From a virus: 30,050 bases of DNA. The stretch covers positions 1 through 30,050 of the IMG/VR virus record IMGVR_UViG_3300005530_000422. The stretch is one strand, 5' to 3'. Every line of letters starts with the position of its first letter. Within the stretch, counting starts at the first letter, position 1. A program made the position numbers and the translations under genes. The notes below the pieces were generated by a model that saw nothing but the letters and a program-made list of their open reading frames with translations, was not told the origin of the DNA and ran no database searches. Shown one piece after another: positions 146-24,412 of this stretch.

Positions 146-1285
146 TTAGGCGGCCCTCTCGGGAGCCGCTTTTTTCATGTCCATATCTGCAGTCAATTCT
201 GCAGTCAATCCGCCAAACGATGTACCCAGCTTGGCCATCTCGGATGACGGCAGGAGTTCCGGACGGAGATGCGCGTACCGTCGTGTAGTCATCGCTGACG
301 AGTGACCCATCACCTGAGCCAGCCATTCGATTGAACCACCACCCATGACCCAGTGGGATGCCATGGTGTGTCTGGTGGCGTGGTACCAGCAGATGGTTGG
401 AAGCTCCAGCTTCAGCTGAGCTGCCTTCAGGCCCCTCCACAGGGCAGCCTGGTCCATGTCAGGGAAGAGCAGCCCAGACCGCTTCTCTGGCCCCTGGAAG
501 CTCTCCAGGATGCTCCCCAGGTCCCCCAGGATGGGGACCGTTCGCCCCTCTTTGTCTTTCAGGCCCCTGAGCTGGCCCTTGTAGAACTGTCTCCTGACGG
601 TGATTCTCTTCCCCGGAAGGTCGATATCTTCCCAGGAAAGCCCCAGAACTTCTGACGTGCGCAAGCCAGCATGGGTACCCACAGCGAAAGCCACCTGAAC
701 ACGGTTGTCCTGGATGCCCTGGTAGATATCCCGAATCTGCTCTTTTGAAGTCAGAAAGGGAGTGTCTTTCGGGTCAGAGTCTGGCTTGAACAGCGCTTTC
801 GTCTGTTTCGTCAGGGACTTCACAGGATTGCGTGTAGCTGCATTAGCTTCGATTAGGGACGTGTAGATAGTAGACAGCAGTCTGACTAGCAGTCCCACAG
901 TAGCGGGCTTTAAATCGCTCTGGCGCTTCCCCTTGATAAAGGCTGCCAGCTTAGCGGTATCCAGCTGGTCTGGCTCCAGGTGTCCGAAGACAGGCTCCAG
1001 GTGTTTCTTCCACCTGAGTTCATCATCCCGGTTTGATGCGTGGGTGAAAGCTCTTTCCTTCAGCCATGCGGTTACCAGGGTGCTGAGCTGCTGGCCTGTG
1101 GCCTGGGGACCAGCTCCAGGGGAAGACGTCTTCATCTTCAGGGCTTCTGAAGCCTGTTCTTGGCTGGTGAAACCTGACTCGTACTTCTTAGTACCGTCGG
1201 GAGTCCGCCACTGAATAGTGAAGGTGTTTCCTCTCCTGTAGACACTACCTGAGCCGTACTCTCTCTTGCGTGCTTTTCTAGGCAT
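146..1285 (-). CDS. int: Tyrosine site-specific recombinase (phage integrase)
   Basis: This 379-aa integrase should catalyse insertion into and, with an excisionase, excision from the adjacent tRNA gene. All parts of the family are visible. There is an N-terminal arm-binding-like segment (about residues 10-45, GSGSVYRRGN), a SAM-like core-binding domain (about 65-155) and a catalytic domain. The catalytic residues are R209 (in AGLRTSEV), a lysine in the beta-hairpin (LKDKEGRTVPI, about 243-245), H302 and R305 (YHATRH), H328 (MGHSS) and the nucleophile Y337 (RRYAHL). Length is typical. The ATG at 1285 has AGGAGG about 10 nt upstream on its strand. The extreme C-terminus is Ala/Lys/Glu-rich and its DNA doubles as the tRNA terminator. 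Transcription runs towards the tRNA. The excisionase-like gene lies just upstream on the same strand. Confidence 0.95.
   Translation of the reverse strand: MPRKARKREYGSGSVYRRGNTFTIQWRTPDGTKKYESGFTSQEQASEALKMKTSSPGAGPQATGQQLSTLVTAWLKERAFTHASNRDDELRWKKHLEPVFGHLEPDQLDTAKLAAFIKGKRQSDLKPATVGLLVRLLSTIYTSLIEANAATRNPVKSLTKQTKALFKPDSDPKDTPFLTSKEQIRDIYQGIQDNRVQVAFAVGTHAGLRTSEVLGLSWEDIDLPGKRITVRRQFYKGQLRGLKDKEGRTVPILGDLGSILESFQGPEKRSGLLFPDMDQAALWRGLKAAQLKLELPTICWYHATRHTMASHWVMGGGSIEWLAQVMGHSSAMTTRRYAHLRPELLPSSEMAKLGTSFGGLTAELTADMDMKKAAPERAA
150..175 (+). terminator. Rho-independent terminator downstream of tRNA-Lys, inside the integrase 3' end
   Basis: GCGGC (150-154) and GCCGC (165-169) form a stem around a 10-nt loop that can close further through CCC/GGG, followed at once by six T (170-175). 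In the plus orientation this is a standard intrinsic terminator and would end transcription from the tRNA gene. The same bases on the minus strand encode the last residues of the integrase, including the AAPERAA tail, so the two functions overlap. Confidence 0.75.
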
Positions 1286-1315
1286 GTAGCCCTCCTGTCC
1301 AATAGTAGTACCGGA

Positions 1316-1567
1316 TTAATGGCTACAGTTCAATAGGCTATCACCCAGGACTAATACCCGCGATCCGACGCGACGCGATACTAGTTCTCCTGATGCCACC
1401 TTGCGGCGAATAGTCTTTTCCGACACTGCAAGAGCCAGAGCAGATTCTTTTACTGAGAACCACTGCGTAGGCGTTTTCTTTTTCAGCGCCTGTATCTCTA
1501 GCTCTAGATAATTAATCTTGTCTTGCATCTGCTGGATTAATTCATTCACAGACTGGAAAGCATCCAC
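1316..1567 (-). CDS. Small HTH protein, excisionase-like or Cox-like regulator
   Basis: This 83-aa protein lies 30 nt upstream of the integrase on the same strand, so the two are probably co-transcribed. The first 30 residues form a predicted coiled coil (NELIQQMQDK then LELEIQALKKK). Residues about 34-75 match the excisionase/MerR-type helix-turn-helix pattern: W-FSVKESALALAVSEKTIRRKV, then a wing, SRRVGSRVLV. The pattern of a first helix, recognition helix and short beta wing is the HTH_17/Xis type. The start is GTG at 1567 with no clear SD close by; ATG at codon 14 is an alternative. Its position suggests recombination directionality control, but as the only HTH protein near the control region it could also regulate the nearby promoters. 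Confidence 0.75.
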   Translation of the reverse strand: MDAFQSVNELIQQMQDKINYLELEIQALKKKTPTQWFSVKESALALAVSEKTIRRKVASGELVSRRVGSRVLVLGDSLLNCSH

Positions 1568-5109: not shown

Positions 5110-5502
5110 GTGGAGATAACCAACCTAGCAGACAAGACATGCGGTAAATGCAAAACGAAGATTAGTAATAGCGGCTCTTATTGCAAGGCTTGCAAGGCCT
5201 TTTACGACAAGGTCCGCTATTACAGAGACCTAGACCAACAAAAAGACAAAAGCCTTAGATATAAATTTGGCTTAACGTTAACCGAATACAACACCATGCA
5301 CAATAGCCAGCGTGGTCTCTGTGCAATCTGCGGTAACCCGGAGACACGGCCTAGTCACAGGCTTGCTGTAGACCACTGCCACAAGACCGGCCGCGTGAGG
5401 GGGTTGTTATGTATGCGATGCAATACCGCTCTCGGTAGACTAGAACCGTTCATCGACAGAGCAGTCTCCTACTTACTCCAGAAGCAGGAGACGAATGACT
5501 AA
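5110..5502 (+). CDS. Endonuclease VII-like HNH nuclease
   Basis: The 130-aa product carries the recombination endonuclease VII family signature: KFGLTLTEYNTMHNSQRG, a first zinc knuckle CAIC (C71/C74), the beta-beta-alpha metal core VDHCHKTGRVRGLLC with D88, H89 and H91, and a second knuckle C101-x-x-C104 followed by N105. Unlike minimal members, it has an extra N-terminal zinc ribbon (C11-x-x-C14 and C25-x-x-C28). Family members resolve branched DNA before packaging (T4 gp49) or nick DNA. The start is GTG at 5110. A second, shorter member of the family is encoded at 24107-24412. The position in the early region fits a role in recombination or replication, or in homing. Confidence 0.88.
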   Translation: MEITNLADKTCGKCKTKISNSGSYCKACKAFYDKVRYYRDLDQQKDKSLRYKFGLTLTEYNTMHNSQRGLCAICGNPETRPSHRLAVDHCHKTGRVRGLLCMRCNTALGRLEPFIDRAVSYLLQKQETND

Positions 5503-21651: not shown

Positions 21652-22938
21652 ATGGCAGATGACATCGAAGACATACTAGCTCTAGCCAACTCTCCAGTCC
21701 CGGACTCAGAGAGTGACGTTACTGACCCAATGACCGGGATGGTTGTTGGGAAGACTCCAAGTGTGCCCTCTCCTGCTACTCCAACAGCTAATACCAGCGG
21801 AACAGCAGCATTTAGAGGAATAGAGCAGGGAGCGGCCTTAGGTCTTGCAGACGAGGGAGCAGCGGCAGCTGACTACCTGATATCTAAACTCCCTGGTGTT
21901 AGAAACGTTGCAGAGAAAGCTAACTCAGCAGCTGGGGGACACCCAGGCTTATCTCCAATAGACAACCCTGATTTAACCTACCAACAGAGAAGGGATGAGT
22001 ATCGAGCTCAACACAAACAAGCTCAAGAGGAACACCCTGTTCTCTATAACGGTGGTCAGATAGCTGGAGCCCTTATTTCGTCTGCATTTCTCCCAGCTCC
22101 TGCATCGGTAGCGGGAAGAATTGGCCTCGGAACAACGCAAGGTGCTGTCTCTGGCTTTGGTCACTCAGAAGCAGACAACGCAAAAGACCTATTAACCGAC
22201 TCTGCCAAAGGGGCCGGAATTGGTGCTGGTGCGTCCGTACTTGGAGAGGGAATTAATAAGACCCTTGATACTGCAGGCGACGCGATAGTCAAAACGGCGG
22301 TGAGGAAGCAACTAGCCCCAGCCCTGATAAAACACGCCACAAACGTTACTAACAGACTAGAACAGGCAAAAGCAGCTCTGGCGTCCGCAGAAGAATCCCT
22401 AGCAACCCCACTAGCCTTACCTACTGATGAGGTAATAAAGAGAACTACCGCAGTAGACAACCTACGCAAACTAGTAGGAACTTTAACCAATGACGCAGAA
22501 CGCGCCACAACTGAAGCCACAAAAGCAGCCTCTATTCCTCCCTCTCCATTGATTGCCACTATCAAGAAGGGAGTTAAGTCAGCGTTACCGTATTCAACTA
22601 TTGGAGCTGGAGCTGGCGCTCTCTTTGGCTCTCATGAAAGAGGACTTGTCGACAGAATAGAGAATGCAGCTATTGGCGCAGCTGTCGGACCAGTCATCTC
22701 CGCCGGTATTAGACTTGGCGGAAACGTTGCCTCCAGAGCAGCTAATACCGCGCTTCCAGCTGCGGCCAAGCTAGCCACGTCCGACCTTTACAACACTCTT
22801 ATAGCCAAAGGTATATCGCCAGTAGTCGCCAACGCAACAACGCAACGCCTAGCAGAACAGAAGGCATCAGAAGACTCAGACAAAGAGATAGACGATATTC
22901 TACTTCTTTCCAAAAAGAGAATCCAAGACGGCAAGTAA
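21652..22938 (+). CDS. Internal virion/ejection protein 3 with glycine-zipper segments
   Basis: This 428-aa protein has a typical phage pre-pore pattern: a helical region YQQRRDEYRAQHKQAQEEHP followed by VLYNGGQIAGALISSAFLPA, then several Gly/Ala-rich hydrophobic stretches (GAGIGAGASVLGEGI, STIGAGAGALFGS, AAIGAAVGPVISAGIRLGG). These resemble glycine-zipper membrane helices. A coiled coil (NRLEQAKAALASAEESLA) lies in between. It follows the two preceding ejection-type genes with two bases between. It probably inserts into the host membrane during DNA entry. The last 39 bases overlap a small minus-strand gene. The ATG at 21652 has only a weak SD. Confidence 0.68.
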   Translation: MADDIEDILALANSPVPDSESDVTDPMTGMVVGKTPSVPSPATPTANTSGTAAFRGIEQGAALGLADEGAAAADYLISKLPGVRNVAEKANSAAGGHPGLSPIDNPDLTYQQRRDEYRAQHKQAQEEHPVLYNGGQIAGALISSAFLPAPASVAGRIGLGTTQGAVSGFGHSEADNAKDLLTDSAKGAGIGAGASVLGEGINKTLDTAGDAIVKTAVRKQLAPALIKHATNVTNRLEQAKAALASAEESLATPLALPTDEVIKRTTAVDNLRKLVGTLTNDAERATTEATKAASIPPSPLIATIKKGVKSALPYSTIGAGAGALFGSHERGLVDRIENAAIGAAVGPVISAGIRLGGNVASRAANTALPAAAKLATSDLYNTLIAKGISPVVANATTQRLAEQKASEDSDKEIDDILLLSKKRIQDGK

Positions 22939-23013
22939 CGCGTGAATAGCGGTCTGGGCAATTACAAAACCAACAAACGCGGCAAAACACACTGAGAAAC
23001 ATTCGATAATCAT
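22900..23013 (-). CDS. 37-aa membrane peptide, antisense to the late operon
   Basis: On the minus strand an ATG at 23013 is preceded by a perfect AGGAGG (23026-23021) at 7 nt and opens a frame of 37 codons ending in TAG (22902-22900). The peptide starts MIIECFSV. It has one continuous hydrophobic stretch of about 28 residues, including CFAAFVGFVIAQ and HALLAVLDSLF, and ends in GKK, so a single membrane span with a basic tail is likely. The gene has its own near-consensus promoter and runs opposite to all surrounding genes. Its 3' end overlaps the last 13 codons of ejection protein 3. This is the usual look of a gene expressed apart from the lytic programme: superinfection exclusion, a type I toxin-like peptide, or an antiholin given the divergent holin candidate. 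No family is recognised. Confidence 0.65.
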   Translation of the reverse strand: MIIECFSVCFAAFVGFVIAQTAIHALLAVLDSLFGKK

Positions 23014-23033
23014 AAGTTAACCTCCTACTGTCC

Positions 23034-23061
23034 ATTGTAGTCTACCCCGGTCTACTGTCAA
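23034..23061 (-). promoter_or_regulatory. Near-consensus sigma70 promoter for the antisense membrane peptide
   Basis: On the minus strand TTGACA (23061-23056) is a perfect -35 box and TACAAT (23039-23034) a 5/6 -10 box, 16 bp apart. Transcription would start near 23027, leaving a leader of roughly 15 nt that begins almost at the AGGAGG. An 8-bp direct repeat, CTACTGTC (plus-strand 23025-23032 and 23052-23059), brackets the promoter, and TCTAC occurs twice 10 bp apart in the spacer. These could be operator half-sites. Confidence 0.75.
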
Positions 23062-23065
23062 TACT

Positions 23066-23329
23066 ATGAAATCAAGAAAAGTAATAATAGTTCTAATATC
23101 CATGGCCCTACTAACACTTGGCGCCCTTATTTGCGCTCACTGGCCTATCTTTTGCGCACAATACCCTGTCTACGTCGGCGGAATTGCAACCCTATGCGCG
23201 ATGTATATAGGCGGCAACGTCTCCAATGATGTCCTAATTGAAAAGACTAAGTCTTTGATAGCCAAGACCCACATTGAAAAGCTTGGTTCACTTCCCCCGG
23301 AGCCTTCGAAAGACCCTGGCACCACTTAA
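23066..23329 (+). CDS. Two-TM membrane protein, holin candidate
   Basis: This 87-aa protein has a short basic start (MKSRK), a first membrane helix (VIIVLISMALLTLGALICA, about 6-24), a second (PVYVGGIATLCAMYIGG, about 34-50), and a charged soluble tail (EKTKSLIAKTHIEKLG, ending PPEPSKDPGTT). Size, two spans and a charged C-terminus fit class II-type holins that permeabilise the inner membrane at lysis. No endolysin gene can be recognised next to it, so the assignment is from topology alone. The ATG has no visible SD, and the -35 box of the opposing promoter ends five bases upstream of it. Confidence 0.55.
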   Translation: MKSRKVIIVLISMALLTLGALICAHWPIFCAQYPVYVGGIATLCAMYIGGNVSNDVLIEKTKSLIAKTHIEKLGSLPPEPSKDPGTT

Positions 23330-24117
23330 TGATTATCGATCCCGGAGAAGCCACCTTATTAGTCCTAGGCCTAAAACCCATCGTTTCGAAAGAAGTGGAA
23401 CGGGTTTATGTGTCTCAGTTCGACGAAATAGACAATCTTGGCACCTATATTGAGCAGCAAGCCCGTCGGGTCACAGACCCAGAAGCTGAGTTCAATTGTC
23501 CGGACGTCGAAGCAGTTAATTACAAGAGCTTCCTGAACCAGCTGGTTGAACCATGGGACCGGGAACAGCTGGAGACCATGATACGGGCCTTTGGCCCTCG
23601 GGGAGCCACTGAGGGGCAAGCTCTCCTGAAGAAAGCTCCTGGAGTAGTCCAGATGCTGAAAGCCCAGATTCCCAGAAGTATCTATTCAGACTTCACGGGC
23701 TTTCTAACCCTCGAACCATCTAATCAGAAGATGTTTGAATACCTGTCTATGGTCGATATCCTTAACGGCAAAGATTATATATGGGAATTGATTGGGTCTG
23801 GTGGTCTTCTGAAGTATCAAGCAATGGCTTTCAAGACGGTATATCCATCGGTATCTGAAGCTATCTCCGAGGCTCTTGTTACCGCCATGGTTAAGAGAAA
23901 GTCTGAAAAGAAGTCCTACCAGCTACCTCTTAAGACCGAATACAGCTACCGAATCTGGTTCAATAAGCCACATGGGGATTTAGCGTTGCTGCTTCAAGCT
24001 AACTTCCAAGCTGCTAACGAGAAAGCTAAGGGCAATAGCCCTCCCCCAAAAGCTAACCCCACAGCTACCCTTACCAATACACAGCGGACATCCCTAAAAA
24101 CTCCAGTTGGTCCCTAG
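23329..24117 (+). CDS. Unknown 262-aa protein in the lysis region
   Basis: The start ATG shares its A with the stop of the holin candidate, so the two are translationally coupled. The protein is mixed alpha/beta without signal peptide or membrane span. Visible segments are VERVYVSQFDEIDNLGTYIE, a Tyr/Trp-containing middle (LVEPWDREQLETMIRAFGPR), a long helical part (MFEYLSMVDILNGKDYIWEL) and a basic region (AMVKRKSEKKSYQLPL). The last 35 residues are a Pro/Thr/Ala-rich tail. No lysozyme, amidase or peptidase motif was found, although an endolysin would be expected here. Function unknown. Confidence 0.7.
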   Translation: MIIDPGEATLLVLGLKPIVSKEVERVYVSQFDEIDNLGTYIEQQARRVTDPEAEFNCPDVEAVNYKSFLNQLVEPWDREQLETMIRAFGPRGATEGQALLKKAPGVVQMLKAQIPRSIYSDFTGFLTLEPSNQKMFEYLSMVDILNGKDYIWELIGSGGLLKYQAMAFKTVYPSVSEAISEALVTAMVKRKSEKKSYQLPLKTEYSYRIWFNKPHGDLALLLQANFQAANEKAKGNSPPPKANPTATLTNTQRTSLKTPVGP

Positions 24118-24412
24118 TAAGGCGACCCTTCGGAAATACGGGTTATCCCTGGATGAGTGGCAGGCGATATTTAATCGCCAAAGTGGGGTTTGTGCTGTCT
24201 GTAAATTCCCAGCGAAACGGCTCTGTATCGACCATGAGCACGTAAAGGGCTGGAAAAAGCTTCCTCCTGACCAGAGAAAACGCTTTGTCAGGGGTCTTTT
24301 GTGCTGGTTCTGTAATACCCGCTATGTAGGCAGAGCCATTACCCTGGAGCGAGCAAAGAACGTAGTGGCTTATCTTGCTGATTACTCGCTCAACCAGGCG
24401 CGCGAATTATGA
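24107..24412 (+). CDS. Second endonuclease VII-like HNH nuclease
   Basis: The 101-aa product shows the compact endonuclease VII core: KYGLSLDEWQAIFNRQSG, first knuckle C29-x-x-C32, metal-binding IDHEH (D42, H43, H45), a 20-residue insertion (KGWKKLPPDQRKRF), then VRGLLCWFCN with C66-x-x-C69 and N70. The order matches the family. It lacks the extra N-terminal zinc ribbon of the early-region copy (5110-5502), and the insertion differs, so the two are not recent duplicates. It starts with TTG at 24107, overlapping the preceding gene by 11 bases. A late position suits resolution of branched DNA for packaging; a homing-type nuclease is an alternative. Confidence 0.85.
   Translation: MVPSKATLRKYGLSLDEWQAIFNRQSGVCAVCKFPAKRLCIDHEHVKGWKKLPPDQRKRFVRGLLCWFCNTRYVGRAITLERAKNVVAYLADYSLNQAREL

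Follow-up and report, generated by a model that had tools for sequence, protein, structure and literature searches.

A probable moron-like gene for a short membrane peptide, antisense to the late genes of a temperate, short-tailed phage

The closest described system is sieA, in the immI region of phage P22. SieA is made in the P22 lysogen, is located in the inner membrane and blocks DNA injection; it has 162-164 residues and three membrane spans, and the mutants that escape it carry changes in gp16 and gp20 (PMC10883804). The P22 gene order is 14, 7, 20, 16 and then, 22 nt further on and on the opposite strand, sieA, with mnt, arc, ant and the tailspike gene after it. At the start of sieA the sequence AAGGAGG lies close behind a weak promoter-like match. 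HK97 gp15 is named as a phage moron in PMC10883804. The Fc02 genes olg1 and gene 10 are exclusion genes, and exclusion by small proteins has been reported for them (PMC9936078). Type I toxins are common in prophages (PMC6563280, PMC6562991).

The window, that is the whole stretch of DNA analysed here, is a virus record of 30,050 bases with a GC content of 49.6%. Its first 44 bases are probably host DNA. They are followed by a complete tRNA-Lys(CTT) gene (45-118) that adjoins the integrase gene (146-1567, minus strand) and then an excisionase-like gene, also on the minus strand. This arrangement suggests the end of an integrated prophage, with tRNA-Lys(CTT) the likely attachment site. The plus strand carries terminase, SU10-type portal, coat, tail and ejection-type genes, and the phage is temperate and short-tailed. 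Past the excisionase-like gene, approximately 500 bases (1580-2105) precede the first gene of the plus strand. They contain repeats of GGTACCAGCT/GGTACCA as well as promoter-like stretches that are AT-rich (TATAAT, TAATACTATAATA), and are likely to represent the control region of the phage; no repressor gene was recognised near them. An endonuclease VII-like gene (24107-24412, PHROG match) is placed amid the structural genes. In the early region another gene (5110-5502) resembles it, as judged by eye only.

An exact 61-nt match to the tRNA-Lys(CTT) gene occurs in two MAGs only, both from the Chersky series, and one of the two also has distant homologues of the tail protein, on two contigs. The class of these MAGs includes a single-contig genome of 12.2 Mb. 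On these grounds we infer that the hosts of the phage group are Myxococcota-like. The true host may differ, because the matching MAG pieces have a GC content of 63-69%.

The peptide gene is on the minus strand. A sigma-70-type promoter, TTGACA-16-TACAAT (23061-23034; -35 element 23061-23056, -10 element 23039-23034), agrees with the consensus at 11 of 12 positions. The Shine-Dalgarno sequence AGGAGG (23026-23021), also assigned by consensus, is 7 nt after the -10 element and 7 nt ahead of the ATG at 23013, which opens a frame of 37 codons with a stop that ends at 22900. The product is a hydrophobic peptide, MIIECFSVCFAAFVGFVIAQTAIHALLAVLDSLFGKK, and the frame overlaps the final 39 nt of the plus-strand gene at 21652-22938. 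With a transcription start 7 nt past the -10 element (approximately 23027) the leader is about 14 nt. A preliminary description of this DNA had reported the same minus-strand promoter, a strong one belonging to the gene itself, and the same spacing and frame, all of which were recovered; it put the leader at about 15 nt. It had also called this the sole minus-strand gene outside the integration module, and the ORF map shows no other plausible one beyond the integrase/excisionase module.

The promoter is the best in the window and the sole 11/12 match on either strand; shuffled windows contain 0.31 promoters of this grade each. The full unit, with a promoter of at least 11/12, the Shine-Dalgarno sequence and a frame of at least 20 codons, appeared in none of 150 shuffles and, when the promoter was relaxed to 10/12, at 0.1 per shuffle. 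AGGAGG at 4-10 nt ahead of a frame of at least 15 codons is seen three times in the 30 kb, at the peptide gene, at the integrase gene and at a 15-codon frame. The peptide gene has the strongest Shine-Dalgarno sequence among the genes listed, a 6-nt match being present otherwise only at the integrase gene. Kinship of these two leaders, both with GGACAG before the Shine-Dalgarno sequence, was considered and set aside as background since another site in the window scores 31 as opposed to 30.

The same architecture was sought in viral contigs with the pattern TTGACA-N16-18-TAYAAT-N6-10-AGGAGG-N7-ATG, and at least 120 stretches matched. Of 100 complete frames among the matches listed, with duplicates removed, 97 are at least 20 codons long and 95 at least 37. 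For all ATGs in the same viral DNA the values are 47% and 31%, respectively, and for promoter-like sites without a Shine-Dalgarno sequence 53% of frames reach 20 codons. At face value about 94% of the matches mark genes. We consider it very probable that the separately promoted, antisense gene for a short membrane peptide is real, and place our confidence somewhat below the face value because the peptide, unlike most of the control matches, has no family. Products sampled from the matches are HicA toxins, HTH and ribbon-helix-helix regulators and a few one-helix peptides. At L073:13510-13623 (IMGVR_UViG_3300017653_000009) a 37-residue one-helix peptide is encoded behind the same promoter and Shine-Dalgarno architecture, on the minus strand inside a plus-strand array past the lysis genes and with a second hydrophobic frame after it. 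This gene resembles those of small prophage toxins, a putative assignment.

Genes as short as 37 codons escape routine gene finders, and the exclusion and toxin genes of prophages are frequently small. The peptide is under 60 residues in length, with a single hydrophobic span and a basic end. In hydropathy over 19 residues it ranks first among the 154 window frames of 30-45 residues, with a best value of 2.36. AlphaFold2, run on the single sequence, predicts one helix (residues 2-35, mean pLDDT 89), a result that for a lone hydrophobic peptide amounts to little more than ‘helical’. The product is probably a single-helix peptide with a predicted location in the inner membrane, and its C-terminal half may resemble TisB. 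Searches of phage records at E 10 and of 318 genomes from the class to which the best tRNA match belongs gave no homologue, and nothing significant was obtained from PHROGs, Pfam, PADLOC, NCBIfam or the PDB; phrog_36365, at an E value of 0.13, is no match. In viral contigs, a degenerate DNA pattern covering the Shine-Dalgarno sequence plus the start of the peptide had zero matches. That the gene might be undescribed had been anticipated. Short homologues in related phages, which the preliminary description proposed to seek, were absent from the libraries searched.

On the plus strand the frame is flanked by the third ejection-type gene (21652-22938, plus strand, 428 aa, phrog_5880). In the relative L045, the homologue of this gene matches phrog_342, a family of internal virion proteins, with an E value of 7e-6, a weak match that suggests the ejection-type assignment. 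Next comes a plus-strand gap of 127 nt (22939-23065) that has no counterpart in the relatives and a GC content of 44%, at the 14th percentile within the window. It is followed by a gene for an 87-aa membrane protein with two spans (23066-23329, plus strand), which overlaps the 262-aa gene (23329-24117, plus strand) by 1 nt. The peptide and 87-aa genes are divergent, with 4 nt separating the -35 element from the 87-aa ATG. Family searches with the 87-aa protein produced no match, and L048, a lone match out of context, was judged to be chance. The site had been described as lying between an ejection gene and a holin candidate. The first label holds by way of the L045 homologue, at the strength of that weak match; the second is a guess from two hydrophobic spans in a protein with no family match.

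Relatives were found by means of the tail, portal and coat proteins (L002, L003, L004, L005 and G321 (L037/L045)), with identities of approximately 28-50%, the tail proteins at 28-34%. They keep the order of tail protein, three more genes (the ejection-type block) and then the 262-aa family, with its member immediately after the third ejection-type gene; the two overlap by 4 nt in L002, L004 and L005, and by 1 nt in L045. In these four the slot lacks the gap, the 87-aa gene and any minus-strand frame, and a scan of the relatives for an analogous unit of promoter, Shine-Dalgarno sequence and short frame found none. Compared with them the window has 390 extra bases, in which lie the 87-aa gene, the promoter and the greater part of the peptide gene. 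Because the flanking genes overlap directly in four distant relatives, we read the peptide and 87-aa genes as an insertion. They would be lineage-specific and moron-like, showing the pattern of a moron and not that of a conserved late gene, with the caveats that these relatives are distant, that the search gave no closer one, and that absence from them would look alike after a gain here and after losses elsewhere. The preliminary description had regarded relatives that retain the plus-strand protein and lack the minus-strand frame as evidence against the gene. This is literally the state of L002, L004, L005 and L045; we take it to reflect an accessory insertion, and keep the reading of a gene.

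Host RNA polymerase would read the gene leftward from its own near-consensus promoter and so the peptide can be made during silence of the late operon. We infer that in the lysogen the gene is on while the late genes are off. Late transcription, once on, would cross the gene in the opposite direction; the late transcript would be antisense to it, and transcription in one direction could plausibly interfere with that in the other. ATKGACAGTAG occurs as two direct copies 27 nt apart (23025-23062, minus strand), one at the -35 element and one just before or over the Shine-Dalgarno sequence. They are possible repressor sites, with the caution that two 11-nt copies per 200 bases can be chance. GTAGACC was rejected as an operator; it is over-represented yet falls mostly in plus-strand coding sequence. 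Past the peptide gene there is no clear terminator, only a weak hairpin at 22684-22667, and a consensus scan of 22300-23400 found no promoter-like site on the plus strand. The peptide message folds no better than its shuffles (z +1.38).

Placed beside P22 sieA, the peptide gene has a like position, on the opposite strand and directly after the third ejection gene, given the weak ejection assignment. The likeness extends, by prediction, to a promoter belonging to the gene itself, a Shine-Dalgarno sequence close behind it and a membrane product. The proteins differ, with 162-164 residues and three spans in SieA compared to 37 residues and one predicted helix here. The likeness to sieA is positional, and says nothing on descent, because the peptide and SieA do not align at E values up to 100. 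No mnt, arc or ant genes were seen in the window. In common with phage morons, the locus has an extra gene missing from the slot in its relatives, distant as these are, and a promoter, by consensus match, for that gene; morons differ in having their own terminator. HK97 gp15 likewise adds to the virion genes a gene with a promoter of its own that relatives lack, in a long-tailed phage as opposed to a short-tailed one. The opposite-strand, overlapping arrangement recalls olg1 and gene 10 of Fc02; these occupy the lysis-lysogeny region and encode larger proteins, whereas the peptide gene is beside an ejection-type gene.

What might the peptide do? We tentatively favour a moron-like accessory gene, expressed in the lysogen and most likely excluding related phages at the stage of DNA injection. 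In a short-tailed temperate phage, such a gene would have entered behind the final ejection-type gene and ahead of the next virion gene. The single-helix peptide would sit in the inner membrane and disturb the membrane conduit built by incoming ejection proteins, blocking DNA injection by related phages in the manner of P22 SieA. The position of the gene, by itself, suggests this exclusion step.

Most of the probability that is left goes to another membrane function in the lysogen. It is possible that the peptide is a real small membrane protein with some other role there, in host physiology or as partner of the co-arriving 87-aa protein. The divergent arrangement of the two genes, 4 nt apart, and their shared absence from the slot in the relatives fit such a partnership, but neither product matches a family and nothing specific points to a shared role.

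A type I-like prophage toxin, a hydrophobic peptide harmful to membranes and repressed by the late plus-strand transcript with no dedicated antitoxin RNA, is the chief rival, though we regard it as unlikely. The size, single helix and basic end of the peptide would suit a toxin, the 3′ end of its gene overlaps a plus-strand gene, and among the matches listed the promoter and Shine-Dalgarno architecture often drives toxin genes in phages, mainly HicA. TxpA, BsrG and YonT share with the peptide a short hydrophobic product, a strong Shine-Dalgarno sequence and transcription on the other strand. They also have an antitoxin promoter and a long leader; neither was found at the peptide gene, and its product has no similarity in Pfam or NCBIfam. 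With its leader of about 14 nt the Shine-Dalgarno sequence is almost at the 5′ end and, in view of the fold score, the usual long leader that masks it is missing. This, together with the lack of a plus-strand promoter in the consensus scan, weakens the classical type I form, and a lysogen would hardly bear a strong, unguarded toxin promoter. Some weight is left to the toxin because the late transcript could act as antisense RNA.

Two explanations are less likely than these. If consensus-like sequence had merely come together by chance and there were no gene, this would account for the distant relatives that lack the unit and for the want of a homologue to show conservation, but it is a poor match to the shuffles (0 of 150) and to the control (97 of 100, among the matches listed, as opposed to 47%). 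It is very unlikely that the promoter is real and the frame incidental, with antisense RNA or colliding transcription silencing the ejection and late genes in the lysogen: the transcript, lacking a clear terminator, would run antisense into 21652-22938, but there would then be no need for a textbook Shine-Dalgarno sequence with its exact spacing or for so extreme a hydropathy.

The locus is very probably an accessory gene that had escaped notice. It would belong to a known kind, the prophage moron with a membrane peptide, and to no known family, with a function suggested by its position. The preliminary description is well supported as regards a real, separately promoted antisense gene, which the routine families do not cover, and the lysogen role it gave the gene is kept as a proposal. 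A near-consensus promoter, a short leader and AGGAGG together form a good marker of real short phage genes, with few false matches (loci from L049 on), and could be used to find short genes that are unannotated. That a 37-residue, single-helix peptide with no relation to SieA, in the SieA slot of an unrelated short-tailed phage, blocks DNA ejection by way of the membrane conduit, as a minimal and independently evolved exclusion factor, is a rather improbable proposition. If true, it would mean that unrelated short-tailed phages reuse the slot past their ejection genes to carry anti-ejection genes, and such reuse would provide a positional rule for finding exclusion factors.
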